Part shown: in pieces, positions 16,454-32,441 of the stretch
Layout of the letters: each line of letters opens with the position of its first letter
How positions within the stretch are numbered: the stretch's first letter is position 1
Assembly (NCBI GenBank): GCA_027306755.1
Contig: DAHUZE010000091.1
Location: 1 to 38,704, forward strand
Direction of reading: 5' to 3'
Origin: Acidimicrobiaceae bacterium
GTDB taxonomy: Bacteria; Actinomycetota; Acidimicrobiia; Acidimicrobiales; RAAP-2
DNA length: 38,704 bases
Made by a program: the position numbers and the translations under genes
The notes under the pieces: generated by a model
Databases searched by the model: none
What the model was told of the DNA's origin: nothing
Seen by the model: only the letters and a program-made list of their open reading frames with translations

Positions 16454-16514
16454 GCCGGATGACGCCCCGGCGAGCGCTTGCTCGAACCGCCTTCACGGGC
16501 TGATGGCTCTACCG
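16454..16514 (+). ncRNA. Fluoride (crcB-type) riboswitch, variant, leader of hyf-like operon
   Basis: Elements in the known order. Pseudoknot strand GCCGG (16454-16458) pairs with CCGGC (16467-16471). GAUGACGCC lies between them and supplies the 5' strand of P1, pairing as GA(C)GCC with GGCUC (16505-16509), with one bulged C. P2 is GCC (16489-16491) with GGC (16498-16500). The hallmark CUGAUGGCUCUACC follows. This closely follows the crystallised Thermotoga fluoride aptamer. Unusual is a hairpin gagc-gctt-gctc (16472-16483) inserted after the pseudoknot. Downstream, CCGAAT/ATTCGG (16512-16529) forms a hairpin abutting the P1 3' strand, a likely expression platform. Formate-hydrogenlyase-type genes are known targets of this RNA class. 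Confidence 0.65.
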
Positions 16515-16549
16515 AATTCATTCATTCGGAGCACGTGGAGGTCGCTGCG

Positions 16550-17515: not shown

Positions 17516-18180
17516 TGCACCTGGTCCCGTCCGCATACGCCGGTTTTGCCGACGTTGTGGCCATGCTCGTCCTCCTGACGGAGTTTGCGATGCTGCGGGC
17601 ACCGCTCCTCCGATCTCAGGTGCGGATCTACGCCTTCCAGTCCCTGGTCGTGACCGGTTTGGCGGTGGACATCGCTGCCGCTCGCCACGTACCCGACCTC
17701 TACACGCTGGCGGCTCTGACGTTCGCCCTGAAGGTGGTCCTCGTTCCCGGGGTGGTGCTGCGGTTGCTCCGCGACGCCGAGGCGGACCTGGCGGGCAGTC
17801 CCGTGCTCGGAGTTGCCAGCATGGTGCTGATCGCCATCGCTGTGTCTGCGTTCGGCTTCTTCGCCGTGGGCTCCTTCCACGTGCAGTCCGCGACGCTCCC
17901 GACGACTGCGCTCGCCATCGCCATCGCCGCCGCGCTCGTCGCGTTCGTCCTCATCATCCTCCGCACGGACGTCGTATCCCAGGCCATGGGGTTCTTCTCC
18001 CTCGAGAACAGCGTGTCGGTGGCCAGCCTGGTCGTTGCCGCCGGGCTCCCACTGGTGGTCGAAGTGGCATTCCTCTTCGACCTGCTCGTTGCCGTGGTCG
18101 TCTTCGGAGTGATCATGCGGGTCCACCATGGGCGGACCAAGACGCTGTCCACCGACGAGCTCGACCGGTTGAAGGGATAG
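17515..18180 (+). CDS. Hydrogenase-4/Ehr-like membrane subunit, HyfE type
   Basis: Small membrane protein of 221 aa with about seven helices and few charged residues inside the membrane. The order of helices, the late segment RTDVVSQAMGFFSLENSV and the C-terminal MRVHHGRTKTLSTDELDRLKG match HyfE, the hydrogenase-4 subunit that combines the role of NuoK with extra helices. GFFSLENSV (ENg/ENS motif) is a HyfE hallmark, carrying a Glu that corresponds to the NuoK proton path. ATG 17515 overlaps the preceding stop and the gene ends seven bases before hyfF-like. It is probably part of the proton-transfer arm. Confidence 0.82.
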   Translation: MHLVPSAYAGFADVVAMLVLLTEFAMLRAPLLRSQVRIYAFQSLVVTGLAVDIAAARHVPDLYTLAALTFALKVVLVPGVVLRLLRDAEADLAGSPVLGVASMVLIAIAVSAFGFFAVGSFHVQSATLPTTALAIAIAAALVAFVLIILRTDVVSQAMGFFSLENSVSVASLVVAAGLPLVVEVAFLFDLLVAVVVFGVIMRVHHGRTKTLSTDELDRLKG

Positions 18181-18187
18181 GCACGCC

Positions 18188-19675
18188 ATGCCCGCAGTGA
18201 TGGTGGCACTCGTCGTCTTGCCGTTCGGCGTGTCCGTCGCGACGTTCTTCCTGCCGGTCCCTGCCTCCCGCGTGCTGTCGGTGCTGTCCGGCATCGCCGC
18301 GTTCTCTCTCTCCCTGCTGCTCGTACCCGCGGCTGCCGATCACCGGCAGATCGCGGTGGGAAGCTTCCTGCGCGTGGACGCGCTCTCGGTCGTGTTCCTG
18401 GTCGCCACGGCCTTCCTCTACGCCACGACGGCCCTCTTCACCACTGGTTACCTCGCGCTGGCGGACAATCCCGCCGGCACCCGCTACGGACGCCGCTTCT
18501 ACGCCGGGTTGAACCTCTTCTGCTGGGCCATGCTTGCGGTGCCGCTGGTCAACGGGCTCGCCCTGCTCTGGGTGGCCATCGAGATCACGACCGTCGTGTC
18601 CGCCCTCCTCGTGGCCATCGACGACACCGACGGAGCGACCGAGGCGAGCTGGAAGTACGTGCTGATCGCCTCCCTGGGCCTCGGGATCGCCCTCCTCGCA
18701 ACCATCATCATGTACTACGCAGGCACGAAGGTGTTCGGGGGATCCTACGACTTGTCCTACGCGACGCTGCTGCACGGAGCGAGCCACTTCCCACCCGGTG
18801 CCGTCCGCCTGGCCTTCGTGCTGGCGGTGCTCGGCTTCGGCACCAAGATGGGCCTCGTCCCCGTGCACACCTGGCTTCCGGACGCGCACTCCGAAGCTCC
18901 CACGCCCGTCTCCGCGCTGCTGTCGGGGGCCCTCTTGGCCATCTGCTTCTACGCGATCTTGCGGTACTTCCAGATCACGGTGCGAGCAGTCGGCCCCGCG
19001 TTCCCGCGAACGGTGTTCCTCATCTTCGGACTGGCGTCACTGCTCCTCGCCGCGCTCTACCTCCTGAGCCAGCGTGACATGAAGCGCCTGTTGGCATATT
19101 CCAGTGTCGAGCATATGGGCATCCTGGCCATCGGGATGAGCTTTGGCGTGCCCATAGCCGTCTTCGGCGTCCTCCTCCACGTCCTCTGCCACGCGGCGGC
19201 AAAGGGGACTGCGTTCTTCGGCGCAGGGTCGGTGGTGCGAAAGTTCGGCTTGAAGGACATGAGCAGGATCCGCGGCGGTATCGGCGCGCTCCCCTGGAGC
19301 GGACCGATGCTGGTTGCCGCGGTGCTGGCGCTCTCGGCTCTTCCCCCGTTCGGCATCTTCCGCAGCGAGTTCCTCATCGTCTCGGGTGGCCTGTCCGGCT
19401 CGAACGACGCGGGCGCTGCTGTCCTCGTCGTACTGGTCACCGTCGCCTTCTTCGGACTGTCGTGGTTCACCACCCAGACCATGCTGTCCGCCGACGTTCC
19501 CGAGGCGTCGCCCGGCGGCGTGGTGGCGACCCCGGACCGCGGCGAGGTCAGCGTATGGATCGTGGCGGCGATGGCGGCGGGGCTGCTGGGACTGACCATC
19601 CTCGGTGTCCATCCGCCAGCCGCCCTCAGCCACCTTCTCGACCGTGCCACGACCGAGCTGGGGGTACCCAGGTGA
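18188..19675 (+). CDS. Hydrogenase-4/Ehr-like antiporter subunit, HyfF type
   Basis: Proton-translocating subunit homologous to NuoL/M/N and Mrp antiporters, 495 aa with about 14 helices. Ion-path residues are intact: the TM5 Glu in LLWVAIEITTVVSALL, the TM7 Lys in GFGTKMGLVPVHTWLPDAHSE, and LLAYSSVEHMGILAIG with HAAAKGTAFFGAGSV further on. It is somewhat shorter than E. coli HyfF because the C-terminal extension is brief. GTG of the next gene overlaps its stop (GTGA). Retention of these residues suggests selection for ion movement even though the redox subunits of the same operon have lost their metal ligands. Confidence 0.88.
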   Translation: MPAVMVALVVLPFGVSVATFFLPVPASRVLSVLSGIAAFSLSLLLVPAAADHRQIAVGSFLRVDALSVVFLVATAFLYATTALFTTGYLALADNPAGTRYGRRFYAGLNLFCWAMLAVPLVNGLALLWVAIEITTVVSALLVAIDDTDGATEASWKYVLIASLGLGIALLATIIMYYAGTKVFGGSYDLSYATLLHGASHFPPGAVRLAFVLAVLGFGTKMGLVPVHTWLPDAHSEAPTPVSALLSGALLAICFYAILRYFQITVRAVGPAFPRTVFLIFGLASLLLAALYLLSQRDMKRLLAYSSVEHMGILAIGMSFGVPIAVFGVLLHVLCHAAAKGTAFFGAGSVVRKFGLKDMSRIRGGIGALPWSGPMLVAAVLALSALPPFGIFRSEFLIVSGGLSGSNDAGAAVLVVLVTVAFFGLSWFTTQTMLSADVPEASPGGVVATPDRGEVSVWIVAAMAAGLLGLTILGVHPPAALSHLLDRATTELGVPR

Positions 19676-21171
19676 GCGGCTCCGCGAGCGACGGCGCGCC
19701 ACGGCTCGAAGCCTTCGTCGCGCACGTGGCCGACCGCATCGACGGAGGAGCCCGGTTCTGCGGGCTGCTCGCTGTGCCGGCCAGCGAAGGGACGCGGCTG
19801 GTGGCGATCCTGGCCTGGGGGACGGCGCTGCGGGCCGAGTCGGTCTCGCTGCCCGAGGCGGGCCTGACCTTTCCCTCGCTCACCTCGCGCATCCCCGGCG
19901 CCAACTGGTACGAACGCGAGATCCACGACCTCTACGGGCTCGAGCCCGCGGGCCATCCCCAGCTCGATCCGCTCGTCCTGCCCCTGGCCCGAGGTGCCGA
20001 CCGGCCCTGCCCGGGATCCGGCGCGCCGGGGCGGCCGGTCGAGCTGGATTGCCGCCCACCGCCGTCCCGCCTTTCGGGCCAGGGCGTGTTCACGATCCCC
20101 TACGGCCCCGTCCGCTCTGGAGTCTTCGAGTCGGTCGAGTACCAGGTCGAGACGCCGGGAGAGGACATCCCCAGCGTGCGGACCCGGGTGTTCTACAAGC
20201 ACCGAGGAATCGAAGCCCGGTTTGAGGGGATGGACGTTGCGGACGGCGCTCTGCTGGCAGAGCGCGTCGAAGGCGTCGCGTCGGTCGCGCATGCCGTGGC
20301 CTACTGCGGCGCCATCGAGCAGATCGCCGGCGTGGAGGTGCCCGAGGGGGCGGGACTGGTCCGGGTCGTCCACGCCGAACTGGAACGGGTCGCCAACCAC
20401 CTGGACTCGACCATCCGGCATGCCGAAGCAGCCGGCCAGGCCGTCGCCTTCGCCCGCCTCACCCTCCACAAGGAGCGCCTGCTGCGGCTCCGGGGAGCGC
20501 TGTGCGGAAGCCGGTTCGGCCGGGGCGTCGTAATTCCGGGCGGGGTTGCCAGCGGGATGGCCATGGCTACTCGGGAGCTCTTCGCAGCGCTCGACGAGCT
20601 CCAACGGGACATCCGCTCCGATCTCCGCATGCTGATGGCCACGCCGTCGTTCGTCGACCGCTTGCGCGGCACGGGGGTGATCCCTCCCGCGCTCGCGGCG
20701 CAGTACGGAGCGGTCGGCCCCCTCGGGCGGGGCTCCGGGCAGACGGACGATGCCCGGCTGGCGCGACCCTACGCCGGCTATCTGCAGCTCGGCAATCAGC
20801 TGGTGGACGTCCGGAGCGAGGGCGATGCACTCGCCCGGCAGCGTGTCAGGATCGACGAGATCGAGGGCGCCTTCCACCTCGTGCGCCAGGCCGCCGACCA
20901 GCTCGATGACCGCAGGGAGGCCCATGGGCCGTGGTCTATCCCGGTGGGCGGCTTCACGAGTGGGGAGGGCCTGGGGTGGGCCGAAGCACCCCAGGGCGAG
21001 GTCTTCTACTTCGTGAGCATGCGCGGTGGGCGCCTGGTCCGGGTGAAGCCCCGCTCGGCCTCCTTCCACAACCTGGGCCTCTTCCGTGCTGCGTTCCCGC
21101 GGGACATCCTCACGGACTTCGCCTTCATCGAGGCGAGCTTCGGGCTCTCGGTCGCAGGGGTGGCGGGGTGA
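19672..21171 (+). CDS. NiFe-hydrogenase-like large subunit (HyfG type) lacking NiFe ligands
   Basis: 499 aa, a fusion of a NuoC-like domain (residues ~1-125, with PGANWYEREIHDLYGLEP) and a NuoD/hydrogenase large-subunit domain. The usual EGRVCGIC-type motif is ERVEGVASVAHAVAYC (about residue 196): both cysteines are replaced, by Glu and Ala. At the C-terminus, where DPCxxC normally ligates NiFe, the sequence is DFAFIEASFGLSVAG with no cysteine. A [NiFe] site therefore cannot form. This resembles the Ehr (energy-converting-hydrogenase-related) group, described as lacking these ligands. The gene has normal codon use and no frameshift, so it is under selection, not decaying. It would be the peripheral structural subunit. 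Confidence 0.82.
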   Translation: MSGSASDGAPRLEAFVAHVADRIDGGARFCGLLAVPASEGTRLVAILAWGTALRAESVSLPEAGLTFPSLTSRIPGANWYEREIHDLYGLEPAGHPQLDPLVLPLARGADRPCPGSGAPGRPVELDCRPPPSRLSGQGVFTIPYGPVRSGVFESVEYQVETPGEDIPSVRTRVFYKHRGIEARFEGMDVADGALLAERVEGVASVAHAVAYCGAIEQIAGVEVPEGAGLVRVVHAELERVANHLDSTIRHAEAAGQAVAFARLTLHKERLLRLRGALCGSRFGRGVVIPGGVASGMAMATRELFAALDELQRDIRSDLRMLMATPSFVDRLRGTGVIPPALAAQYGAVGPLGRGSGQTDDARLARPYAGYLQLGNQLVDVRSEGDALARQRVRIDEIEGAFHLVRQAADQLDDRREAHGPWSIPVGGFTSGEGLGWAEAPQGEVFYFVSMRGGRLVRVKPRSASFHNLGLFRAAFPRDILTDFAFIEASFGLSVAGVAG

Positions 21172-21190
21172 CGGCGGGGAGCGTGGTCTG

Positions 21191-22108
21191 ATGCCCTGGA
21201 TCCCGAGAGGGTTGCGCGAAGGAATCGTCACCACCCGCTATCCACGCCGACCCGACGGCTACGGTCCGCGCTTCAACGCGGCGGTGGTCGTCCGGCCCGG
21301 GCCGCACGACGCCGCGACCCTCGCCGCGGCGGCGGCCGCCTGCCCCACCGGTGCGATCGCCGTTGCCGGCGTCCCGGCATCGGGCCCAGCCGAGGGCGTG
21401 GGCCGCGACGCAAGCGCGGGCGGGGTGGCACTCGACCGCGGGCGGTGCGTCCTCTGCGGGCGGTGCACGGACCTGGCGCCCGGGGTGTTCGGATTCGATC
21501 CGTCCTTCGAGATCGCCGGCATCACCCGGGACACGCTGGTCGTCCCGCGGCGGCCCGAGACCGATCGGGCCATCGCCGCCACGAGGACCGAGCTCGGACG
21601 CCGGACCCGCGCCCTGCGCCGTTCCGTGCACATCCGCCATGTGGACGCCGGGTCCGACGGTGCCGACGAGTGGGAGATCGCCGCCCTCACCAACCCGGTG
21701 TACGACGTGCAGCGCTTGGGGATCTTCTTCACGGCCAGCCCCCGCCACGCCGACCTGCTCCTGGCGACGGGCACCGGTACGGCGGCGATGCTCGGCCCGC
21801 TGCGCGAAACCTACGAGGTCATGCCCGAGCCGAAGATCGTCATCGCGGCGGGAGTCGACGCCGTCAGCGGGGGCCTCGTGGGCCGGGGGTATGCCACGTC
21901 CGGCGGCATCGGCGATGCCGTCCCGGTGGACGTGTGGGTGCCCGGCGCGCCGGCCTCGCCGTTCGGCCTGCTGTCGGCGATCCTCCTGGCGCTCGACCTC
22001 CTGCCGGCCGCCCACGGCGCGGGTGTGGCCCCCCCTCCGTCGACGCCCGGAAGGGCCGCTCCTGCGCCGGCTCCCGAGGGGGACCCAATCCCGGGGGTCG
22101 GCGCGTGA
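21191..22108 (+). CDS. Ferredoxin-HyfI fusion, small-subunit homologue without proximal-cluster cysteines
   Basis: 305 aa from ATG 21191. Residues ~30-110 are ferredoxin-like: Cys51 in ACPTGAI and Cys86, 89 and 92 in CVLCGRC. Those are exactly the four ligands of one of the two [4Fe-4S] clusters; the other cluster's ligands are gone. Residues ~145-275 match HyfI/NuoB (ALTNPVYDVQRLGI, ASPRHADLLLATG, EPKIVIAAG, VPVDVWVPG), but CxxC is DxxD (Asp156, Asp159), the next Cys is Asp223 and the PGCP Cys is Ala253, so no proximal cluster. A Pro/Ala-rich tail follows. HyfH and HyfI are normally separate genes. It overlaps hyfB-like by GTGA. Confidence 0.8.
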   Translation: MPWIPRGLREGIVTTRYPRRPDGYGPRFNAAVVVRPGPHDAATLAAAAAACPTGAIAVAGVPASGPAEGVGRDASAGGVALDRGRCVLCGRCTDLAPGVFGFDPSFEIAGITRDTLVVPRRPETDRAIAATRTELGRRTRALRRSVHIRHVDAGSDGADEWEIAALTNPVYDVQRLGIFFTASPRHADLLLATGTGTAAMLGPLRETYEVMPEPKIVIAAGVDAVSGGLVGRGYATSGGIGDAVPVDVWVPGAPASPFGLLSAILLALDLLPAAHGAGVAPPPSTPGRAAPAPAPEGDPIPGVGA

Positions 22109-24135
22109 GCAGCCTGCTCGTCGCGCTCGGTCTCGGGTGCTTCGCGCTGGGCGCCGCGGTGGACGTCGCGTGGGGAGTCCGCCGGGTCGGCGTCCGCCTC
22201 GTCCCCTACATCCTGGCCGGCGCCGGGAGCGCCTGCTTCTTCGCGCTCGGGATCCGGGCGACCACGGAGCGCAGGCCATCGACCGTGGACTTGGCCGTGG
22301 TCTTCGGCCTGGGCCACAACGGGCTCCGCGTGGACCGGCTGTCCGGGCTCTTCCTGACGTTGCTTTTCGGTCTGGGGGTGGCCGTTTCCGCGTGCTTCAT
22401 CTCGTGGGCACGGGCCGACGCCCATCCACACCGGCGGGGGACGGGCGCCGGGTACCTCCTGCTGCTGGGCGCGGTGGCCGTCATCATCTGCGCCCGCGAC
22501 GCGTTCACGTTCCTGTTCGCGTGGGAGGCTCTCACGGTCTCCTTCTACATGCTCACCGCGGTCACCCGCAGGGCCGGGCACAGCGGTGCGCCCTGGTCCA
22601 CCGTGGGCATGGGAAAGGTGAGCGGCGCGGCGCTGCTCGTCGCCTTCCTCCTCCTTGCAGGCCGCACCGGCAGCCTGACACTCAGCAGTTGGCATGCCGT
22701 GAGCTCCGGCGCCGTCCACGACGTCGCCTGGTTGCTGGTTGTCGTCGGCTTCGGCGCCAAGCTGGGTCTGGCGCCTTTCCAAGTCTGGATCCCTGTCGGG
22801 TACCCGACCGCCCCCGGGCCGGCCCGGGCTGCCATGGCCGGTATCGCCGCCAACGTCGGGGTGTACGGCCTGTGGCGCTTTCTCGGGATCCTGGGTGCTC
22901 CGCCCGTCTGGCTGGTCGTCCTCGTGCTGTTGGCCGGCGGCGCCACCGCGCTGCTCGGCATCGTCTTCGCCGCAGTGCAGGGAACCCTGGCGCGGGTGGT
23001 CGCCTACTCGTCCATCGAGAACGCCGGCCTCATCACGACCGCATATGGCGTCGCGTTGACCGGCGCGGCCATCCGGTCCGAGCCGCTTATGGCCATGGGC
23101 TTGCTGGCGGCAACGCTGCAGACCGTCGCCCACGCCGTAGCCAAGTCCGCGCTCTTCTCGTCCCTGGCCGCGATCGAAGGCGCGATCGGCACTGACGATC
23201 TCGACCTGCTCCGCGGCGTCGGTCGGCGCATGCGCTGGAGCGGCGCCACCTTCGGAGCCGGTGCCCTGGCACTGGCCGGTCTGCCTCCCACGATCGGATT
23301 CGTGTCCGAGTGGTTCATCCTGGAGGCCCTGATGCAGCAGTTCCGCCTGTCGGGGCTCGCCTTGCGGCTGGCATTGGCCGGAGCGGGCGCCCTGGTCGCG
23401 CTGACGACGGGCCTCGCCTCACTGGCGTTCATCCGGGTCCTCGGCTTGACGATGCTGGGCCGCCCCAGCGCCGTCGTCGACGAGCGGGCACGGGAGACCG
23501 GCGCGGTGGGAAAGGCCGGCATGGCCACGCTCGGTGCAGGATGCCTCGGCTTGGCCGCCGTCAGCCCGTGGGAGGTCCGCTACATCGCTCTCGGGCTGCA
23601 GCCGCTCGTGCGGCACAGTCAGACCGTGGTCGCCCTCAAGTCCCCGTGGGTGCTCCAGCCGGTGTTCCCAGGCTTCTCCATCCTGTCGCCGTCCTGGCTC
23701 TGGATCGCCATGCCCGTAGCGTTCGTTTCCGTCCTCGCACTGGCGTTGGCGCTCTCCAGGGGCCGCTACCTGCGGATCCGCAGGGTGCCGTCGTGGCACT
23801 CGGCCACGGCCGGCGCACTGCGCCCGGCGTCGTACACGGCGTTCGGCTTCGCCAACCCGGTGCGCCGGGTGCTCGGCAACGTGCTGGGCACCCAGCGCAC
23901 CGTCACGGTCACCCAGACCGCTCCGGAGGGGCAGCTCGTCGTTGAGGCAGCCACCGTGACCGAGACGAGGGTGGTCGAGCCGCTCGAGGCCTACGTCTAC
24001 CGCCCCCTCCGGTCGCGCGCGCTGTCACTTGCGAGGTTGGCGAAACGCTTGCAGTCCGGCAACCTCAACGCCTACGTGGCCTACATGCTGGTCGCCCTCC
24101 TGATCGCCCTGGCTGTGACCGCGGCCCTGCAATGA
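22105..24135 (+). CDS. Hydrogenase-4/Ehr-like antiporter subunit, HyfB type
   Basis: Second NuoL/Mrp-type ion-translocating subunit, 676 aa from GTG 22105, about 15-16 helices, close to E. coli HyfB in length. Path residues are present: Glu in TFLFAWEALTVSFYML, Lys in GFGAKLGLAPFQVWIP, then VAYSSIENAGLITTAYG and AHAVAKSALFSSLAA. The segment PPTIGFVSEWFILEAL is conserved in HyfB. The C-terminal region (residues ~540-640) is hydrophilic with VVEPLEAYVYRPLRS, then a final helix. It is the last of the six complex genes; UspA follows at once. Confidence 0.87.
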   Translation: MSSLLVALGLGCFALGAAVDVAWGVRRVGVRLVPYILAGAGSACFFALGIRATTERRPSTVDLAVVFGLGHNGLRVDRLSGLFLTLLFGLGVAVSACFISWARADAHPHRRGTGAGYLLLLGAVAVIICARDAFTFLFAWEALTVSFYMLTAVTRRAGHSGAPWSTVGMGKVSGAALLVAFLLLAGRTGSLTLSSWHAVSSGAVHDVAWLLVVVGFGAKLGLAPFQVWIPVGYPTAPGPARAAMAGIAANVGVYGLWRFLGILGAPPVWLVVLVLLAGGATALLGIVFAAVQGTLARVVAYSSIENAGLITTAYGVALTGAAIRSEPLMAMGLLAATLQTVAHAVAKSALFSSLAAIEGAIGTDDLDLLRGVGRRMRWSGATFGAGALALAGLPPTIGFVSEWFILEALMQQFRLSGLALRLALAGAGALVALTTGLASLAFIRVLGLTMLGRPSAVVDERARETGAVGKAGMATLGAGCLGLAAVSPWEVRYIALGLQPLVRHSQTVVALKSPWVLQPVFPGFSILSPSWLWIAMPVAFVSVLALALALSRGRYLRIRRVPSWHSATAGALRPASYTAFGFANPVRRVLGNVLGTQRTVTVTQTAPEGQLVVEAATVTETRVVEPLEAYVYRPLRSRALSLARLAKRLQSGNLNAYVAYMLVALLIALAVTAALQ

Positions 24136-24155
24136 CTGGGGCCCTGCAATGACTG
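24123..24155 (+). repeat. 16-bp tandem duplication across the hyfB-like stop
   Basis: ggccctgcaatgactg occurs at 24123-24138 and again at 24140-24155. The first copy contains the hyfB-like stop codon; the second creates an ATG at 24149 that is in frame with uspA. This is a small recent duplication, not a gene. Confidence 0.9.
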
Positions 24156-24169
24156 AGGGGAGGAGGGGG

Positions 24170-24619
24170 ATGCCACCCGGACCCCACGACCATCCCGCCG
24201 GCGTGTTCCGACGCATCCTCGTCGGATTCGACGGATCGACGGAAGCGCAGCACGCGCTGCGGGTTGCGATCGCCCTCGCTTCCGAGCTCGGCGGCCGGAC
24301 GCACGTGCTTCTGGTCGTCCGCCCGCCTGCGCACGCCGAGACCGGAGAGGAAGCGGCCCGAGCAGCGGAGTCCGAACGCGAGCACCTGTCTTCAGGCCTG
24401 GCGGAGGCGGAGCGGCTCACGCCCCACACCGCCGCCATCGTCACCGAGGTGGTGGTGGCCGACGATCCGGCCGGCGCCATCGCCGCCTACGCCGAGAAGC
24501 ACGGCTTCGACCTCGTGGTGGTCGGGACCCACGGCCGCGAGCGGAGCACCCATCGGGGCATCGGCCGGTCCGTCGAGTCCCTGCTCCGTCACCATCCCTG
24601 CCCCGTCCTCGTGGTGTAG
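24170..24619 (+). CDS. Universal stress protein, UspA family
   Basis: 149-aa single Usp domain. It starts RRILVGFDGSTEAQHALR (beta1 and alpha1) and ends DLVVVGTHGRERSTHRG with IGRSVESLLRHHPCPVLVV, carrying the G-2x-G-9x-G-type nucleotide-binding motif, so it probably binds ATP. ATG 24170 is chosen because a strong GGAGGAGG run lies just upstream; ATG 24149 lies in a duplicated segment. It is in the same transcript as the hyf-like complex, and UspA genes are known among fluoride-riboswitch targets. Its stop overlaps the next start (TAGTG). The role in fluoride stress is unknown. Confidence 0.85.
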   Translation: MPPGPHDHPAGVFRRILVGFDGSTEAQHALRVAIALASELGGRTHVLLVVRPPAHAETGEEAARAAESEREHLSSGLAEAERLTPHTAAIVTEVVVADDPAGAIAAYAEKHGFDLVVVGTHGRERSTHRGIGRSVESLLRHHPCPVLVV

Positions 24620-25527: not shown

Positions 25528-25902
25528 TTATCGCCGCCGCCGGGGCACCGGGTCGTCGAGACTGGGCACGGGGAGCCGGCCGGACCGCCTGAGCGTCACC
25601 TCTTCCCGGGTCACGAGCGAACCCGGGGCCAGCTCGTGCACAACTGCCAGGAAGGCGTCGATCTTCTCCGCCGCGTCCACGAGCTCGACGGCGATCGGGA
25701 GCCCTGCCGCGGCCTCGGGGAACCGGAACGTTCGGACCTGGCCGGACCTACCGAAGCCCTCGATGCCCCGCCACACCGATGCCCCGGCCATGCCCTCCTC
25801 GCGCGCCCGTTGCACCACGATCTCGTGCAGGCCTCGATGCCCGACGCGATCATCCTCGCTCAGGAAGATCACGATCCTCGCCGCCGCCTCGGTGACCGGC
25901 AT
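25528..25902 (-). CDS. DUF190 (PII-like) protein, leftward copy
   Basis: 124 aa from ATG 25902, with GGAGG about five bases upstream. The frame is open further, but that part lacks family similarity. Residues VIFLSEDDRVGHRGLHEIVVQRAREEGMAG match the DUF190 start, where a ferredoxin-like PII fold is formed; GASVWRGIEGFG and LPIAVELVDAAEKIDAFL are the other conserved segments. DUF190 genes are regular neighbours of crcB and are thought to have a regulatory, nucleotide-sensing role. It points away from crcB, and I see no riboswitch in its own 5' region. A second copy lies between the two crcB genes. Confidence 0.8.
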   Translation of the reverse strand: MPVTEAAARIVIFLSEDDRVGHRGLHEIVVQRAREEGMAGASVWRGIEGFGRSGQVRTFRFPEAAAGLPIAVELVDAAEKIDAFLAVVHELAPGSLVTREEVTLRRSGRLPVPSLDDPVPRRRR

Positions 25903-26021
25903 CACGCCTCCGTTCCCACGCGGGAAACCTCCGCGCGAACGGTACCTCACCACGTGCTCCAGAGCGTCACACGACCTGGGGGCTGGTACCGCGCGATCAG
26001 TGGTCCTGGTAACCTCCACAG

Positions 26022-26067
26022 AGGCGATGGAGCTCGCCTACGTGTGCCAGAAGGCTGATGGCTCCTG
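26022..26067 (+). ncRNA. Fluoride riboswitch upstream of crcB
   Basis: All consensus parts are present. Pseudoknot AGGCG (26022-26026) with CGCCU (26035-26039). P1 GGAGC (26029-26033) with GCUCC (26061-26065). P2 GCC (26046-26048) with GGC (26053-26055) and an AGAA loop. UGAUG sits at 26056-26060. The P1 3' strand GCUCCU (26061-26066) is also complementary to AGGAGC at 26100-26105, which holds the crcB Shine-Dalgarno; CCUCGU (26077-26082) can pair ACGAGG (26097-26102). Fluoride binding would keep P1 formed and free the ribosome site, giving an ON switch. TAACCT at 26010-26015 is a possible -10. Confidence 0.9.
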
Positions 26068-26108
26068 TCCGAATTGCCTCGTACGGGCATGAACGAACGA
26101 GGAGCTCG

Positions 26109-26633
26109 ATGGCATTCACCGCAAAGGGGGACGCGACGCGTCGCCCTCCCGTCGACCCCGATGTCCATGCCAGTGCGGCGGAGGAGAGGTCGCACACCCG
26201 GCGCGGCAGGCCCTCCCGACCCAACCAAGCTGTCGTCGTCGCCCTGGCATGCGGAGGTGCCGCGGGCGCGGTTGCGCGGTACGCGGTCTCGCTCGCCATG
26301 CCGGCGACGCCCGGCCAATTCCCGTGGGGCACGTTCACCATCAACGTGACGGGAAGCTTCGTCCTCGGGTTCCTTCTCGTCCTCCTGCTGGAGCGGTTCC
26401 CACGCGGTCGTCTGGCCCGCCCCGTGATCGGGACCGGGTTCCTCGGGGCGTACACGACGTTCTCGACCTACATGGTGGACGCCGTCCAGCTCGTGCACGG
26501 CGGGCACCCGGCAACCGCCGCCGCCTACGTGCTGGGCAGCCTGGCCGCCGGGCTGTTGGCCGTCTGGGCGGGAATGGCCGGCGCCCGTGTCGTCGGGAGC
26601 GCCGAGCGCTGGCTCCGGGACGGCGAGCGATGA
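26109..26633 (+). CDS. crcB: Fluoride channel CrcB/Fluc, first copy
   Basis: Dual-topology fluoride export channel subunit, 174 aa with four helices. A ~45-residue Arg/Pro-rich N-terminus precedes GGAAGAVARYAVS (TM1). Then PWGTFTINVTGSFVLGFLL carries the pore Asn, and GTGFLGAYTTFSTYMVDAV has the TTFST motif with the Phe-box. ATG 26109 is preferred, four bases after GAGGAG; an earlier ATG at 26058 lies inside the riboswitch. The stop overlaps the next ATG (ATGA). The two CrcB proteins may form a heterodimer, as known for paired Fluc genes. Expression is controlled by the fluoride riboswitch immediately upstream. Confidence 0.9.
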   Translation: MAFTAKGDATRRPPVDPDVHASAAEERSHTRRGRPSRPNQAVVVALACGGAAGAVARYAVSLAMPATPGQFPWGTFTINVTGSFVLGFLLVLLLERFPRGRLARPVIGTGFLGAYTTFSTYMVDAVQLVHGGHPATAAAYVLGSLAAGLLAVWAGMAGARVVGSAERWLRDGER

Positions 26634-26968
26634 CCGGGGCTCCGGGAACGGGCTTCGGCCGCCGGGCAGCGGTCCGGCTCACGATGTGGCTCGACGTGCG
26701 GGACCGCCACCGGCACGGGAGCCTCGGAGTGGAGTTGGTGAAGCGGGCCCGCGCGGAGGGCCTGGCAGGTGCGACGGTCTTCGAGGGGCGGCTCGGCTTC
26801 GGAGCCGGAGGCGACGTTCACCGGGAGCGCCTGTTCTCCGACGACCGGCCACTCGCCATCGTGGTCGTGGACCGGGCGGATCGGATCGAGGCGTTCCTCC
26901 AGCGGCTGGAGGGATATGCGCCGGGGGTCGTGACGACCGTCGAAGATGTCGAGATCGTCGATGTGTGA
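26630..26968 (+). CDS. DUF190 (PII-like) protein, between the crcB genes
   Basis: 112 aa, start ATG 26630 overlapping the stop of crcB by four bases. Residues RLTMWLDVRDRHRHGSLG, VKRARAEGLAGATVFEGRLGFG and PLAIVVVDRADRIEAFLQRL are the three conserved DUF190 blocks, suggesting a PII-like trimer. It is a regular partner of fluoride channels; direct function is not established. Translational coupling with crcB upstream and a 9-bp gap to the second crcB imply a fixed stoichiometry in one operon. It differs clearly from the leftward copy, so it is not a recent duplicate. Confidence 0.85.
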   Translation: MTGAPGTGFGRRAAVRLTMWLDVRDRHRHGSLGVELVKRARAEGLAGATVFEGRLGFGAGGDVHRERLFSDDRPLAIVVVDRADRIEAFLQRLEGYAPGVVTTVEDVEIVDV

Positions 26969-26977
26969 GCCCGCGCC

Positions 26978-27355
26978 GTGACCATTGCCTTCTTCCTCCT
27001 CGTCGCCGCAGGCGGCTTCGTCGGCGCCCCGGCGCGCTACCTGCTGGACCGGGCGGTCACCCAAAGGTTGGAGTCGGACCTGCCGTGGGGAACCTTCTTC
27101 GTGAACCTGTCTGGATCGCTCCTCCTCGGCCTTCTGATCGGGCTCAGCCTCAAAGGGCACCTCTCGGGCCCGGCGAAGGCGCTGCTGGCGACCGGGTTCT
27201 GCGGGGCGTACACCACCTTCTCGACGTTCACGTTCGAGACGGTCCGCCTGGTCCAGGACGGCCGCATGCTCCACGCCGCCGCGAACGCCGCTGCCAGCGC
27301 CGCCGTCGGGCTGGTGGCGGCGGCAGCCGGCTTCGCCCTGGGGCTGGCGTTCTGA
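26978..27355 (+). CDS. crcB: Fluoride channel CrcB/Fluc, second copy
   Basis: 125 aa from GTG 26978, four helices, without the N-terminal extension of the first copy. Signature segments: GGFVGAPARYLLDRAV, LPWGTFFVNLSGSLLLGLL with the pore Asn, and GFCGAYTTFSTFTFETVRL with TTFST and Phe residues. In genomes with two small crcB genes the products often assemble as antiparallel heterodimers (known for Fluc pairs); the different N-termini here fit that. It ends six bases before the convergent leftward operon. Confidence 0.88.
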   Translation: MTIAFFLLVAAGGFVGAPARYLLDRAVTQRLESDLPWGTFFVNLSGSLLLGLLIGLSLKGHLSGPAKALLATGFCGAYTTFSTFTFETVRLVQDGRMLHAAANAAASAAVGLVAAAAGFALGLAF

Positions 27356-27361
27356 CCCTGC

Positions 27362-27928
27362 TCAGGCCGGCGGCCTGCTCGCCGGGGAGGGATCGAGCGG
27401 CTCTGCGCCGGCATTGGCCAGGCCCTTCGTCACCGCCTGCAACCGGCCGAGTTGGCGCTCCGTCTCGTCGAACTCCGCCACCATGACGCCCACGAGCTCG
27501 CGCCTGGCTGCCTCCACCCGCTGCGCCATGTCGTAGCGCACCCGGCCGGCATGCTTTGCGAGCTCATCCCTCAGCCGGCGCCTCGCCGCCCCCAACGCGC
27601 GGCGCCGGCCCAGCCCACGGGGAAGCACCCAGGATGCGAGCAGGCGCCCCACCGCATCGGTGGGGCTCTCCACCGAGAGGAACAGGTAGGTGAAGTGCGG
27701 GCGCTGGGACTCGACCATCGGGACGGGCACCGCGGGCAGATGGATCTCGAACAGCTGCTCTGCCGCGCCGACCAAGTGGCCCACCCGGTCACGGGTTCGC
27801 TCGGTGTAGCGCCAGGCCACGGCGGTCCACCCGGCGGGCTCGGGCCGGCCGTCCACCAGCTCGCGGAGGCGGCGGGCGACGTCCAGCAGCTCCCCGTCAT
27901 GGCGGCCGTCGGGATCGCTCACCGCCAT
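27362..27928 (-). CDS. Unrecognised helical protein, last gene of the enolase-like/MutS-like operon
   Basis: 188 aa from ATG 27928; GTG 27922 is also possible. It begins 16 bases after the stop of the upstream MutS-like gene. The sequence is mostly helical and rich in Arg, Ala and Leu: VARRLRELVDGRPEPAGW, THLV-like EIHLPAVPVPMVE, a hydrophobic patch TYLFLSVESPTDAVGRLL, then long amphipathic helices (RRRLRDELAKHAGRVRYDM and MVAEFDETERQLGRLQAV) with coiled-coil character. The middle and end resemble the C-terminal helical region of bacterial dynamin-like GTPases, but no GTPase domain is present. I do not claim a function. Convergent with crcB. Confidence 0.6.
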   Translation of the reverse strand: MAVSDPDGRHDGELLDVARRLRELVDGRPEPAGWTAVAWRYTERTRDRVGHLVGAAEQLFEIHLPAVPVPMVESQRPHFTYLFLSVESPTDAVGRLLASWVLPRGLGRRRALGAARRRLRDELAKHAGRVRYDMAQRVEAARRELVGVMVAEFDETERQLGRLQAVTKGLANAGAEPLDPSPASRPPA

Positions 27929-27944
27929 GTCCCGCGGCCGCCCT

Positions 27945-29504
27945 CTACGCCGAGGGGCCGTGCAGGACGGCACCGGCGGGCTCCGCGGGCAGTGCCCGCT
28001 CCGGCTGCTCCTCGTCGAGCCATCCCCCCATCCGGCGGTAGAGGTCCTCGCCGAAGCTGGTGGGAAGGGGGTCGGCCACCCGCAACCGGAATGTCCGCCT
28101 CCCGTCGTCCTCCCGGACGGCACGGAGGAACAGGGTCGAGCTCGCCGCCGAGAGCCGGAAGCCGTTGGCCAGGTCGAACTGGTGCGTGACGAAGCAGATC
28201 CTGACATCAGCCTCGAGGAGCGCGCGAACCACCTGGCGCCCGATCTCCGAGCCTTCCCGCTCGTTGGTCGCGGCAAAGGACTCGTTGAACAGCACCATGC
28301 TGTGCGGGCGGATCTGGTCGGCGATCGTGCTCATGCGGCGGAGCTCCTCGTCCAGCCGGCCGCTCGTCATCGTGTCGTCTTCCTCCCGGATGAAGTGCGT
28401 GAACGTGGCGGCGGCCACGCTCGCCCGCAGGGAGGTGGCGGCCACGAACATGCCGCACTGCATCATCAGCTGCGCCGTACCCATGCTCCGCAGGAACGTG
28501 GACTTGCCGCCGGAGTTGGCACCGGTCACGATCACGAGCGTCTGACCGTCAGCCCGGACGTCGTTCCCGACCACAGGCCGGTCCGAGCGGAGCGCGAGGC
28601 TCACGTCACGGAGGTCGGTGCACGTGAACGCCCGGTCCTCCCACGGCGCCGGGTCGGGCATGCAGACCGGATGTCCCCGGGCGACCAGCTGCTCGTGCAG
28701 GTTGACGCAGGCAAGGTAGAACCCGAGCTCGGCCCGCAGCATTCTGAAGTAGCTCGCGAGGTGGTCCACCGATTGCGCCGCTGCGTTGGCGACCAGGTTG
28801 ACACCCCGGCTGAGCATGTCCGACAGCGTGTTGGCTCCGGCCTCGTCGCGCGGCGGTACGGTGAAGGAGTACGACCGCCGCGGGCCGATCCTGAGCCGAT
28901 CACGCCAGCTCCTCTGGTCAGCCGAGGTTCGGAGCACGTAGTTGATCCCGCTGTTGTCTGGGCCCAGCTCCATGCTGATCACCTCGCCGCTCCGGAACCT
29001 GAGCTGCTCGAGGTTCCGGTCCACGGTCGCCAGGTAGTCATCGTCCAAGTCCCGCTGCAGCGAGTGCAGCAAGGTCCGCAGCCCGACGGATGCAAACGTG
29101 CCTGCGTGCTGGTCGGCCAGCCGTCGCAGGTCTCGAAGCCGGACGACCGACGCGTCCAACTGGCTCACCGCTCCCGACAGGATCGACGACGGGGAGCGCG
29201 AGGAGAACCCCCAGATCCCGCGCTTGTCCTCCAAGGCGCGGACCGCCACCTCGTAGAGGTCGCGGACCACGTCGGGATGCGCGAGGCAGTCGGTCAGGAC
29301 CGCCTGGCGGTAGCCGATGACCTCGAGGTCGTCCACGCCGGCCAGCAGCACGCTCTGGGCCACCGCGTAGAGGTAGCGGTCGCCCTGCGCCATCGCGCCG
29401 AGCAGCGTCGTGAGCTCGAGGTCCGAGACGAGGTCGTCGTGGTTGGGCGGCAAAGGCGCGTCGAAGGCGTGGTCCCGTGTCTCGAAGAGCAGGTGCGCCT
29501 TCAC
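27945..29504 (-). CDS. MutS-like ATPase B (core and ATPase domains only)
   Basis: 519 aa from GTG 29504, overlapping the previous stop by GTGA. The N-terminal ~330 residues are helical and resemble the MutS lever/clamp core; no mismatch-recognition or connector domain is present, so it is not a canonical mismatch-repair MutS. The ATPase domain has Walker A TGANSGGKSTFLRSMG, TRP-like FIREEDDTMTSGRLDEELRRM, Walker B VLFNESFAATNEREG (Asn for the usual Asp, Glu kept) and the His switch CFVTHQFDLANGF. Length equals that of the upstream MutS-like A, suggesting a heterodimer. It is the third gene behind a fluoride riboswitch; mutS-like genes are recorded targets of that RNA. Confidence 0.8.
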   Translation of the reverse strand: MKAHLLFETRDHAFDAPLPPNHDDLVSDLELTTLLGAMAQGDRYLYAVAQSVLLAGVDDLEVIGYRQAVLTDCLAHPDVVRDLYEVAVRALEDKRGIWGFSSRSPSSILSGAVSQLDASVVRLRDLRRLADQHAGTFASVGLRTLLHSLQRDLDDDYLATVDRNLEQLRFRSGEVISMELGPDNSGINYVLRTSADQRSWRDRLRIGPRRSYSFTVPPRDEAGANTLSDMLSRGVNLVANAAAQSVDHLASYFRMLRAELGFYLACVNLHEQLVARGHPVCMPDPAPWEDRAFTCTDLRDVSLALRSDRPVVGNDVRADGQTLVIVTGANSGGKSTFLRSMGTAQLMMQCGMFVAATSLRASVAAATFTHFIREEDDTMTSGRLDEELRRMSTIADQIRPHSMVLFNESFAATNEREGSEIGRQVVRALLEADVRICFVTHQFDLANGFRLSAASSTLFLRAVREDDGRRTFRLRVADPLPTSFGEDLYRRMGGWLDEEQPERALPAEPAGAVLHGPSA

Positions 29505-31060
29505 GGGCCGACCCGCTCGCGTAGCCGCCCGTAGGTGACCCCGTGCTTCTCGGCGATGGCCATCGCGTAGGCCAGCCCGTCTGCCGGGGCCCGCACCACC
29601 TTGAAGGTCCGCTGGGCGGGGTCGTCGGGGACAACGGTGCTGACCATGCTCACGATCGAGGGCCCGAAGGACGCCAGCTCGTCCACGAAGGTCACGTACA
29701 CCGCAAGCAGGTCCAGCCGGACCATCTTCTCCAGAGCCCTGGCGCCCAGGAAGGCGGCATCGTGCAGGGCGGTGGACGAGAACGCCTCGTTCATGACCAC
29801 GATGCTGTCGGGGGTGGCATGGAGCAGGATGTCCCGCACAGCCAACAGATCCTCCTCCAGCTTGCCCGTCATGGTGCCCAGGTCCTCCTCCCGCCCGAAA
29901 TGGGTGAAAAGCCGGTCGAACCGGGCCAGGTGCGCCGCCGTTCCCGGCACCGGGCACCCGATGCTGGCCAGGTGGTGCAGCTGGCCGAACGTCCGGGCGA
30001 AGGTGGTCTTTCCTCCCTGGTTCGGTCCGGTGACCACGATCACACGCTCAGCCCCGTCCAGCCGCAGGTCGTTGGTGACGACGGGCTTGCCTTCCTTCAC
30101 GAGCTTGCGGGCCAGGGCGAGATCGAACGTCGCGAGCGCGAACACCCCGGCCCGCTCCCCAACCTCGGGGTAGCAGAGGGGGAGCCCGGCCGCCCGGATG
30201 GGATGCACGTATTCCAGGTACGCCAGATAGAACTGGACTTCCCGCTCGAACTCCCTGATCGATGGGTCGTAGAAATCTTGGTGGCGAGCGCAGTAGTCGT
30301 CGAGCGATCCGAATTCCTCGGGGAACAACCTGGCCACGAGCCCGAGGATCTGCTCGCTCACGTGGTACATGCCGGGCCATCCGCGGTACGCGACCCGGTA
30401 GTCCTTGGCTGCTCCCTGCTTGAACCGCTCGAACGTGTCCAGCACCTCGGCGCTGAAGTCGGCTTCACCCTCGTAGCGGCTCACCTCCACCCGGGTGCCG
30501 TGGATGCGGACGCAGTAGCGGACAGCGGCGAGCGCCGACTTCTGGGAGCGCGTCTCGGCCTCCATCTCCGAGTAGGCCGCCGACGCGAGGTAGCCCTCGA
30601 GGTGGGCCCGGAACGCTTGTAGGGCCCCTGACTCCAGCGGCGCGGCACGCAGGTGCCCGGCCAAGGCGCGGACGGCGTCGCAATAGAGGGCGACGGCATC
30701 CAGATGCCAGCCGTTGCGGTGGTGCCGGTCGGGCATCTTCTGCAGCGCCACCAGGTGCGCCCGTACTCGGCGGAGCTGTTCAACGAACGCCGACACCTCT
30801 TGGAACAACGAGCCGCGCTCCAGGTCCAAGAACACCTGCTGGCGAAAGGCGATGGCCGCGGGGTCCCGCAGCTGGCGGTAGAACAGCGAGCCGACCAGGT
30901 CGTCCTCCTGGCCCTTGGCCATGTCGGCCGCCGCCTGGTCCAGGTTGAGGTCGGCCGCGAAGGCGGGAACGCCCTCAACCGCGCCGTCCCCGTAGCCGCC
31001 GGGGGGGAACAGCAGCGTCAGAGGGGATCCCGTTGCATCGTGAGTCGCTATCCGGGTCAT
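29501..31060 (-). CDS. MutS-like ATPase A (core and ATPase domains only)
   Basis: 519 aa, ATG 31060 overlapping the enolase-like stop (ATGA). An N-terminal helical core starts TLLFPPGGY with AADLNLDQAAADMAKG. The ATPase part has Walker A VVTGPNQGGKTTFARTFG (about residue 340), the segment FTHFGREEDLGTMTGKLEEDL, Walker B IVVMNEAFSSTALHDAA (Asn in place of Asp) and, at the His-switch position, VYVTFVDELASFG, where Phe replaces His. Domains I-II of MutS are missing. Compared with B, the loss of the switch His suggests an asymmetric pair in which one ATPase is weaker (inference). Both genes are intact with no frameshift. Confidence 0.8.
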   Translation of the reverse strand: MTRIATHDATGSPLTLLFPPGGYGDGAVEGVPAFAADLNLDQAAADMAKGQEDDLVGSLFYRQLRDPAAIAFRQQVFLDLERGSLFQEVSAFVEQLRRVRAHLVALQKMPDRHHRNGWHLDAVALYCDAVRALAGHLRAAPLESGALQAFRAHLEGYLASAAYSEMEAETRSQKSALAAVRYCVRIHGTRVEVSRYEGEADFSAEVLDTFERFKQGAAKDYRVAYRGWPGMYHVSEQILGLVARLFPEEFGSLDDYCARHQDFYDPSIREFEREVQFYLAYLEYVHPIRAAGLPLCYPEVGERAGVFALATFDLALARKLVKEGKPVVTNDLRLDGAERVIVVTGPNQGGKTTFARTFGQLHHLASIGCPVPGTAAHLARFDRLFTHFGREEDLGTMTGKLEEDLLAVRDILLHATPDSIVVMNEAFSSTALHDAAFLGARALEKMVRLDLLAVYVTFVDELASFGPSIVSMVSTVVPDDPAQRTFKVVRAPADGLAYAMAIAEKHGVTYGRLRERVGP

Positions 31061-32265
31061 CGCCGGCGCACACCGAAGGGGACCGCGATCGCCTCCTCAG
31101 CGATGGCCAGCAGGCGATCAGCCACGAGCGCTCGCTGCCCCGTGGGCGGCGCCCCCACCTTGATCTGCCCGCACCCCACAGCCACCGACAGATCCGCGGT
31201 GAACGGGTCGAGTGGCGTGCCGGCGCAGTGCGAGACCATGGCGCCGAACCCTTCTTCGTATGCAGACCGGATGGCGGAGATCGCCTCGGTCACCGTTCCG
31301 ATCCGGCACGGATCGATGGCTGCCGCCGTCCCGCGGCCCCATGCCGCGGCCGCAACGATCTCCAGCGACGGCGCAGCGTAGCTGCCGCCACCCACGACCT
31401 GAACGCGACTCCCCAGCCGGCGGGTGAGCAGCTCCCAACCCTTGGGGTCCGTGTCGGCCATGCCGTCCTCGATGGAGGTGATGGGAAAGCGCTCCACCAG
31501 GGCGCCCAGGTACTCTACGAAGTCGGCCGCGCTGAACCGGAACCCGTTCAGCCGGTACTCCCCCTCCGGCCCGACGAGCCGAGACGCCCCGATGTCGAGC
31601 GCGATCCCCACTTCCGTGCCCGCCACGTATCCCGATGTGGCGATGGCCTGGCACAGCAGGTCCAAGACGTCCTCCGGGGCCTGGAGCGCGGGCACGAAGC
31701 CGCCCTGGGCGGCGTGGTCGGTGCCCAGCCCGCAGGCCGCGATCGCCCGTCGAAGGCCGGCATGGATCTCGCTCCCGGCCTGGGCGGCGGCGCGAGTGGA
31801 CGGCGCGCCGATCGGCACCACCATGAGCTCCCGCACGTCGAGGCGATTGGCAGCTGGGCTGCCGCGCACGGCGGAGAAGTACGGGACGGGAAGCCGCTCT
31901 GGAGACGGGTGCGGGAGCCACCGGTACAGCGGCTGGCCGCCCTGCACGGCGAACGCCCGCGCCGCGGCCACCGAGACGCCGATGGTGGCATCTGCGCCAA
32001 GGTGCTCCTTCGCCCGGGTGCCATCGAGGTTGCAGAGGACGGCATCGAGCTCTTCGAGCGAGGCCCAGCGCCTTCCCACGAGCTCTGGGGCAAGTCGCCG
32101 CTCGATCGTCTCGACGGCCGACGGCGCGCACGCCGGGACCAACGCCCTCGCGTGGACGGTCCCCGCCTCGATCCGAACATCGACGGCCGCCCGTCCGGGC
32201 TCGTCGAGGACCCTCCGCGCGCTCAGCGAAGTGATCTCGAGGGTCGGCCCCGACACCACGGTCAT
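31057..32265 (-). CDS. Enolase homologue, probably without enolase activity
   Basis: 402 aa from ATG 32265; GTG 32337 would add 24 residues. Conserved enolase segments: HLGADATIGVSVAAARAFA, VRELMVVPIGA (Glu168 of yeast kept), ALDIGAS (Asp246 kept), ITSIEDGMAD (Glu295 kept), MVSHCAG (His373 kept) and GQIKVGAP (Lys396 kept). But the catalytic Lys345 position is Asp (AAIDPCRIGT), Glu211 is Gln (AAQGGF), the Mg ligand Asp320 is Gly (VVGGGSY), the His159 loop is shortened without His, and the SGASTG loop is absent. A fold-retaining pseudoenzyme or altered-reaction enzyme is likely. First gene behind a fluoride riboswitch; real enolase is a classic fluoride target. Confidence 0.82.
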   Translation of the reverse strand: MTVVSGPTLEITSLSARRVLDEPGRAAVDVRIEAGTVHARALVPACAPSAVETIERRLAPELVGRRWASLEELDAVLCNLDGTRAKEHLGADATIGVSVAAARAFAVQGGQPLYRWLPHPSPERLPVPYFSAVRGSPAANRLDVRELMVVPIGAPSTRAAAQAGSEIHAGLRRAIAACGLGTDHAAQGGFVPALQAPEDVLDLLCQAIATSGYVAGTEVGIALDIGASRLVGPEGEYRLNGFRFSAADFVEYLGALVERFPITSIEDGMADTDPKGWELLTRRLGSRVQVVGGGSYAAPSLEIVAAAAWGRGTAAAIDPCRIGTVTEAISAIRSAYEEGFGAMVSHCAGTPLDPFTADLSVAVGCGQIKVGAPPTGQRALVADRLLAIAEEAIAVPFGVRRR

Positions 32266-32329: not shown

Positions 32330-32362
32330 CCTGGCACCTCACTCTCTCGAGGTTCGACCAGG
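32330..32362 (-). promoter_or_regulatory. Hairpin competing with riboswitch P1 (expression platform)
   Basis: On the minus strand CCUGG (32362-32358) can pair CCAGG (32334-32330), stacked on ACCUC (32353-32349) with GAGGU (32340-32336). CCUGG uses the last bases of the aptamer P1 strand, so this hairpin and the fluoride-bound aptamer exclude each other. The stem buries GTG 32337, an alternative start of the enolase-like gene. Confidence 0.55.
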
Positions 32363-32405
32363 AGCCATCAGCCACTGCGGCAGTTCCGGCGAGCTCCATC
32401 GCCGC
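32355..32405 (-). ncRNA. Fluoride riboswitch upstream of enolase-like/MutS-like operon
   Basis: Read leftward: GGCG then AUGGAGC then UCGCC, GGAACUGCC, GCAGU, GGCUGAUG, GCUCCUGG. Pseudoknot GGCG/CGCC, P1 GGAGC/GCUCC, P2 GCC/GGC and the UGAUG element are all exact and match the copy before crcB closely. A TACCAT at 32416-32411 (minus) is a good -10, placing the transcript start at the aptamer's first base. The gene start is 90-140 bases downstream. Confidence 0.9.
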
Positions 32406-32441
32406 TTCCCATGGTAGTTCGAGCCTCGCCGTGCCAGCCCA

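Follow-up and report, generated by a model that had tools for sequence, protein, structure and literature searches.

The window analyzed here is a 38,704-nt stretch of contig DAHUZE010000091.1 (positions 1 to 38,704, forward strand) of an Acidimicrobiaceae bacterium (GenBank assembly GCA_027306755.1), whose draft genome spans 2.55 Mb and is 82% complete. All positions refer to this stretch. On its minus strand, four open frames follow a single fluoride riboswitch and encode, in order, an enolase-fold pseudoenzyme, two MutS-like proteins that we call A and B, and the remnant of a dynamin-like GTPase (Table 1). The riboswitch (32412-32352, minus strand) lies 86 nt upstream of the enolase-like start. 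The start of A overlaps the enolase-like stop by four bases (ATGA), the end of A overlaps the start of B by another four (GTGA), and gene 4 follows B after a gap of 16 bases. The GC content at third codon positions (GC3) is of coding type in all four frames (0.87 to 0.92). Coordinates, GC3, and the RF01734 match agree with an earlier, sequence-only reading of the locus as four tightly spaced genes behind a fluoride riboswitch. The conserved unit, however, is the A-B pair and not all four genes.

Table 1. Features of the operon and its surroundings, in positions of the window. R1 is our own covariance model, built from 13 local riboswitches.
Feature	Position	Strand	Evidence
Fluoride riboswitch aptamer, operon head	32352..32412	-	RF01734 50 bits (cut-off 34), E 4e-11
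Enolase-fold pseudoenzyme, 402 aa	31057..32265	-	Enolase_C E 4e-53, Enolase_N E 2e-18
MutS-like A, MutS-core ATPase subunit, 519 aa	29501..31060	-	MutS_V E 3e-16
MutS-like B, MutS-core ATPase subunit, 519 aa, GTG start	27945..29504	-	MutS_V E 2.5e-17
Gene 4, dynamin-like GTPase remnant, 188 aa	27362..27928	-	Homolog alignment
crcB fluoride channel gene 2, convergent with gene 4	26978..27355	+	PF02537 E 1e-30
DUF190 protein between both crcB genes	26630..26968	+	DUF190 profile match, frame checked; ATGA overlap with crcB gene 1
crcB fluoride channel gene 1	26058..26633	+	PF02537 E 5e-29
Second fluoride riboswitch, head of crcB operon	26014..26074	+	RF01734 33 bits (cut-off 34), R1 37 bits
Second DUF190 protein, ends approximate	25528..25893	-	DUF190 profile match, open reading frame
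Universal stress protein UspA	24149..24619	+	PF00582 E 4e-28

A and B are members of the MutS superfamily: both carry a MutS_V domain above the Pfam gathering score (60 and 64 bits against 30) together with a MutS core fold. MutS_V was the only domain that Pfam detected in either protein at E values up to 1. At the same threshold, MutS domains I to IV gave no match in A or B; Smr had no Pfam match in either, and both proteins end after the ATPase domain. AlphaFold2 models built with 46 to 47 natural homologs reached a predicted local distance difference test (pLDDT) value of 85 for A and 84.7 for B, each with a predicted template modeling (pTM) score of 0.83. The model of A matches the cores of MutS, MSH2, and MutS2 with Z scores of 26 to 29, that of B matches the cores of MSH2, MutS2, and MutS with Z scores of 28 to 31, and the Foldseek matches listed for the two models include no non-MutS fold. 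Since the fold matches, which cover 360 to 440 residues, begin only at approximately residue 260 of E. coli MutS, domains I and II (mismatch recognition and connector) are absent; the lack of mismatch recognition domains in the two 519-residue proteins had been claimed at the outset. Both models have a short clamp region of low prediction confidence (approximately residues 180 to 230 in A and 175 to 220 in B).

The nucleotide-binding motifs of the two subunits differ. A combines the Walker A motif GPNQGGKTT with the Walker B motif VVMNEAF and has Phe458 at the position of the MutS switch His, whereas B has GANSGGKST and VLFNESF and keeps the switch His as His441 in VTHQ. N424 and E425 are present in 100% and F458 in 99% of the A homologs (n = 115), as are N407 in 99% and E408 and H441 in 100% of the B homologs (n = 118). 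Asn at Walker B in both proteins and a switch His in only one, first noted at this single locus, therefore hold across approximately 115 homologs each, and this constancy marks Asn-Glu and Phe-for-His as family signatures rather than local drift. Every outgroup sequence whose motif was read has Asp-Glu at Walker B, and those of MutS1 combine DE with the His. The D693N variant of E. coli MutS (PDB 3k0s, by its title) is an engineered version of the same Asp-to-Asn change.

In a phylum sample of 396 genomes, 14 genomes other than that of the window encode B homologs (E < 1e-110), with A adjacent every time, and a scan of species genomes yielded at least 589 relatives. The best 80 relatives belong to Actinomycetota, Chloroflexota, Bacillota, several proteobacterial groups, Bathyarchaeota, and Methanocella, among others, and the pair spans many phyla and two archaeal lineages. 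At 115 loci, A is followed by an adjacent B; the few exceptions are located at contig ends or are broken copies. The protein distances of A and B correlate strongly across 87 loci (Mantel r = 0.93; null maximum, 0.35). A tree built on the ATPase region places A and B in one clade each (support of 98 each), the two clades being mutual sisters, and splits A+B from MutS1, MutS2, and KamC by a branch with a support of 99; this is a quick tree with long inner branches, in which the exact attachment of the pair is unsure. These comparisons identify A-B as a separate, ancient, and paired ATPase family that is inherited as a unit. The pair does not group with repair MutS, and its own clade, its paired inheritance, and the absence of domains I and II bear out the earlier proposal of a dedicated heterodimer-type ATPase outside mismatch repair, in which the heterodimer itself is the probable arrangement. 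Ordinary MutS1 and MutS2 are kept alongside the pair in carriers such as Thermoanaerobacter and Desulfosporosinus, and a MutS_V search of the window's genome, at 82% completeness, found no MutS besides A and B.

Divergent B-like proteins with 32 to 41% identity and the same gene order were also observed (G407, G524, G592, G663, G696, and G760; loci L169 and L170). In the group with 32 to 33% identity, the reported match crosses an in-frame stop, and crcB lies near some of the loci.

The pair is under fluoride-riboswitch control in the window and recurrently in relatives. With R1, whose training set includes the window copy (55 bits), we found that 62 of the 111 A genes have a riboswitch on the same strand no more than 600 bp upstream, against approximately 3% expected by chance, and that 25 further genes of the 111 have one within 6 kb. 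After near-duplicates were removed, 52 of 104 A genes retained a riboswitch within 500 bp upstream, against an expectation of 2.7%. In relatives, A and B are linked and under fluoride control, and the pattern that the sequence-only reading had named as contrary evidence, unlinked genes lacking a fluoride riboswitch, was not borne out for the pair. Its recurrent neighbors are CrcB, DUF190, Usp, enolase, pyrophosphatase, and proton-pumping Hyf-like subunits, and A-B loci share both the riboswitch and these neighbors with known fluoride-riboswitch regulons and islands (crcB, eno, ppaC, uspA, and gpmA). Only about one-quarter of the loci have an enolase close to the pair, and the same fraction holds for the gene 4 family; order and strand vary in both cases. 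We thus abandoned the earlier idea of a conserved four-gene, four-protein module, as the neighborhood survey found only A-B to be constant and the exact arrangement of the window is not conserved in relatives.

The A-B pair is also found on conjugative or mobilizable plasmids of Klebsiella, Citrobacter, Enterobacter, Salmonella, and E. coli (48 plasmid records); among 5426 complete E. coli genomes, it was present in just one. On E. coli plasmid p027_SK3a, a riboswitch, a cation:proton antiporter gene, uspA, A, and B are located beside crcB-gpmA-eno-uspA-ppaC, which matches the gene order of the Enterobacter cloacae FRM operon. Deletion of that operon (ppaC-uspA-eno-gpmA-crcB) shows that it confers high fluoride resistance, and the study makes no mention of the MutS-like pair (PMC5533749). 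A Burkholderia multivorans plasmid carries riboswitches with eno, ppa, a NUDIX gene, A, B, and a dynamin gene. The pair is widespread, plasmid-mobile, and present in culturable bacteria, Thermoanaerobacter wiegelii and Anaerolinea thermolimosa among them. RefSeq and PLSDB annotate the plasmid copies as DNA mismatch repair protein, MutS-related, or hypothetical, and our analysis corrects the mismatch repair annotations of the A-B genes. A 2010 paper already linked this riboswitch class to mutS, which was listed as a DNA repair gene and read as pointing to DNA damage (PMC2864571). What appears to be new is that the partner is a paired, asymmetric family of the NE type rather than mismatch repair MutS, which recasts the puzzle of fluoride inducing mutS as one about a machine of two proteins that can be addressed directly.

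The first gene of the operon keeps the full fold of enolase (phosphopyruvate hydratase) and has lost most of its catalytic residues. The protein scores 268 bits, below the eno equivalog cut-off of 300, and in yeast numbering, the S39 loop, H159, E211, D320, K345, and R374 are replaced, with E168, D246, E295, H373, and K396 kept, leaving it without the Mg-binding and catalytic residue set of a functional enolase. In a tree, it falls among island enolases from actinobacteria, with a branch length of 1.33, and a separate, residue-intact enolase is encoded elsewhere in the genome. Spare enolase copies are a known response to fluoride (PMC11139923). Because the enolases near the pair in relatives have an intact active site in nearly all cases, we interpret the pseudo-enolase as a local change, reflecting either decay or a new role. 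A pseudo-enolase is not the rule for the family. Among neighboring enolases in relatives, the only similarly degenerate one was observed in another Acidimicrobiales fluoride island (L067:4751-6499, plus strand), with GGDGEF, GGD, LVGLDQ, and SHRSC; it is perhaps sister to the window copy (93% support in a quick tree, with a long branch).

Gene 4 had been described as a helical protein. Its residues 3 to 32 align to residues 112 to 142, and its residues 32 to 166 to residues 531 to 663, of the open frame of a full-length homolog at L059, which encodes the closest B to the window's own. Full-length homologs contain Dynamin_N (E 2e-27). Compared with these bacterial dynamin-like GTPases, gene 4 retains the N-terminal tip (the first ~30 residues) and the C-terminal helical domain, joined across an in-frame internal deletion of ~390 residues that includes the GTPase domain. 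The missing ~390 residues, Dynamin_N included, were sought across the rest of the window's genome, and none were seen. On this alignment, gene 4 is an internally deleted dynamin-like GTPase, with misassembly as a possible cause, and this identification replaces both the novel helical protein and weak matches to ProQ and Hemerythrin. Of 28 full-length dynamin-like genes (near-duplicates removed), 10 have a fluoride riboswitch of their own no farther than 500 bp away, and such GTPases were seen directly after their own riboswitch at L044, L053, L068, L069, L086, L094, L114, L161, L162, L165, and L167. The dynamin-like GTPase may belong to the fluoride regulon as a member not yet reported. Its recurrence in fluoride islands appears to be new, as our literature search found no report of it; that search missed most subscription papers, which leaves priority uncertain for this recurrence and for the A-B family alike.

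The state of these two genes bears on a first alternative, namely, that the operon is decaying in this organism, with the enolase as a dying duplicate, the GTPase as a deletion remnant, and A-B as a family-conserved pair whose cargo is junk. The loss of the enolase catalytic residues, its long branch, and the internal deletion in gene 4 all point in this direction. However, none of the four frames is interrupted and their GC3 is of coding type, the family-invariant motif residues are kept in A and B, the riboswitch is intact, and a degenerate enolase occurs in at least one other locus, L067, where it may be related. We consider general decay possible though somewhat unlikely. The enolase and the dynamin-like GTPase of this genome are degenerate forms of optional island genes, and the pair probably does not need them.

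A comparison with known MutS-core proteins delimits what A-B could do. With mismatch repair MutS, MSH2-MSH6, and MSH2-MSH3, it has the core fold of lever, clamp, and ATPase in common (Z scores of 24 to 31 against MutS and MSH chains). As in the eukaryotic MSH heterodimers, its subunits are asymmetric, and two composite ATP sites would be expected. Unlike MutS1, it lacks domains I and II, has a Walker B Asn in both subunits and Phe for the switch His in A, forms a separate clade, shows no MutL dependence, and is controlled by fluoride; MutL is absent from the window's genome (82% complete) and from 6 of the 14 other carriers (five actinobacterial and one Bathyarchaeota). Each subunit resembles MutS2 (RqcU) as a stand-alone core of ~500 residues from the lever on (Z scores of 26 to 31) but differs from it in the lack of an Smr match, the Walker B motif, the division into distinct A and B paralogs, and the separate clade, and A and B score 56 to 62 bits against the MutS2 equivalog, whose cut-off is 400. 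KamC, the ATPase of the lysine 5,6-aminomutase reactivase (NCBIfam NF052383), is likewise a stand-alone MutS-core ATPase of similar length, named for its protein target. A and B score 34 and 59 bits against this model, and we rejected them as KamC members because these scores fall below its cut-off of 300 and the clades are separate. KamC is not known to be linked to a fluoride riboswitch.

We tentatively propose that A-B is a fluoride-induced, probably obligate heterodimer ATPase that remodels fluoride-arrested complexes and not DNA mismatches. Binding of fluoride to the riboswitch would turn on synthesis of the pair, and the shared mRNA with its 4-base overlap would give near-equal amounts of A and B. 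The product would be a MutS core (lever, reduced clamp, and ATPase) minus the mismatch recognition and connector domains, with two unequal ATP sites, B contributing both the catalytic Glu and a switch His and A contributing Glu with Phe at the switch. Both subunits have exchanged the Mg-coordinating Asp of Walker B for Asn, which would loosen Mg2+ binding; work on D693N MutS reportedly traced the effect of that change to weaker Mg coordination. Looser Mg2+ binding could slow the cycle, possibly creating a long-lived ATP clamp state, and could also make the pair harder to trap by Mg-fluoride phosphate mimics, such that it would run where fluoride stalls other NTPases. The clamp would then shut on fluoride-arrested complexes and remodel or release them, the candidate substrates being enzymes held in Mg-F-phosphate traps, such as enolase and pyrophosphatase, or ribosomes that stall on trapped translational GTPases. 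Fluoride inhibits enolase and pyrophosphatase, often by forming tight complexes that involve the active-site metal (PMC11139923 and references therein), and because these two enzymes are also recurrent neighbors of the pair, fluoride-trapped enzymes or GTPases would be the most economical substrate. By analogy, KamC, named as an enzyme reactivase by NCBIfam, may offer a precedent for a MutS-core ATPase with a protein target.

Several points weigh against this proposal. For approximately one-fifth of the pairs, no riboswitch was detected within 6 kb, and the A-B complex, its ATPase activity, and its substrate are deduced from sequences and predicted models. Enolase and pyrophosphatase would be expected as neighbors in any fluoride island, and their co-location with the pair says little about contact; the clamp-like region of the models would make a DNA or RNA substrate possible, and KamC is not a close relative. 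A bolder version, which we consider unlikely, is that A-B is the founding member of a class of heterodimeric MutS-core stress machines, fluoride-hardened by the Asn Walker B, that dismantle Mg-fluoride-phosphate dead-end complexes and reactivate enzymes or ribosomes. If true, it would represent resistance by repair of the targets, as opposed to ion export or a spare enzyme, and a pair that repairs fluoride-trapped enzymes would offer a new resistance principle of use in organofluorine bioremediation.

Among the alternatives for the activity of the pair, a nucleic-acid route would make A-B a fluoride-induced DNA clamp that, for example, curbs mutagenesis or recombination when inhibited pyrophosphatase lets pyrophosphate accumulate, or that acts under DNA damage by HF. 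The MutS core fold with its clamp-like region, the mismatch repair or MutS-related annotations in RefSeq and PLSDB, the DNA damage proposed in the original crcB-motif paper (PMC2864571), and the NUDIX gene beside the pair on the Burkholderia plasmid are consistent with such a role. The mismatch recognition and connector domains are absent, however, many carriers lack MutL, the Walker B Asp is lost in both subunits of what is a separate clade, and the checked genomes that have ordinary MutS retain it besides the pair, all of which makes a DNA clamp quite unlikely.

We assign a similarly low likelihood to a MutS2-like ribosome rescue, in which the pair would act on fluoride-arrested ribosomes, such as those whose elongation-factor GTPases are trapped by fluoride complexes that mimic phosphate. 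DNA need not be the target of a stand-alone MutS core, and the fold matches (Z scores of 26 to 31) include the MutS2 core in a disome-bound structure besides MutS1 and MSH2; nevertheless, Smr has no match in proteins that stop after the ATPase domain, the conserved neighborhood holds no ribosome-linked gene, and the sequences lie outside MutS2. There are reactivases with a pseudo-subunit of the enzyme on which they act; in the same way, the pseudo-enolase might be a working adaptor, such as a decoy or bait that brings the ATPase pair to fluoride-inhibited enolase, and its retained fold and five conserved residues with metal and base positions lost, its place as the first gene overlapping A by four bases, and the separately encoded true enolase would fit this role, but nearly all relatives of the pair manage without a pseudo-enolase beside intact neighboring enolases, which makes an adaptor very unlikely.

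The surroundings of the operon identify the window as a fluoride resistance island, since the operon riboswitch faces a second riboswitch, a crcB-DUF190-crcB cluster, and uspA. The second riboswitch (26014-26074) overlaps the annotated start of crcB gene 1, whose true start is probably farther downstream. A DUF190 domain fused to several CBS domains was seen in another fluoride locus (L090:11766-13202, plus strand). Beside the fluoride genes of the window, a Hyf/Hyc-like proton-pumping gene cluster at approximately 16478-24135 (plus strand) adjoins uspA, as it also does at L213, and the same kind of neighborhood is shared by 33 of the 115 loci and by a Burkholderia plasmid.

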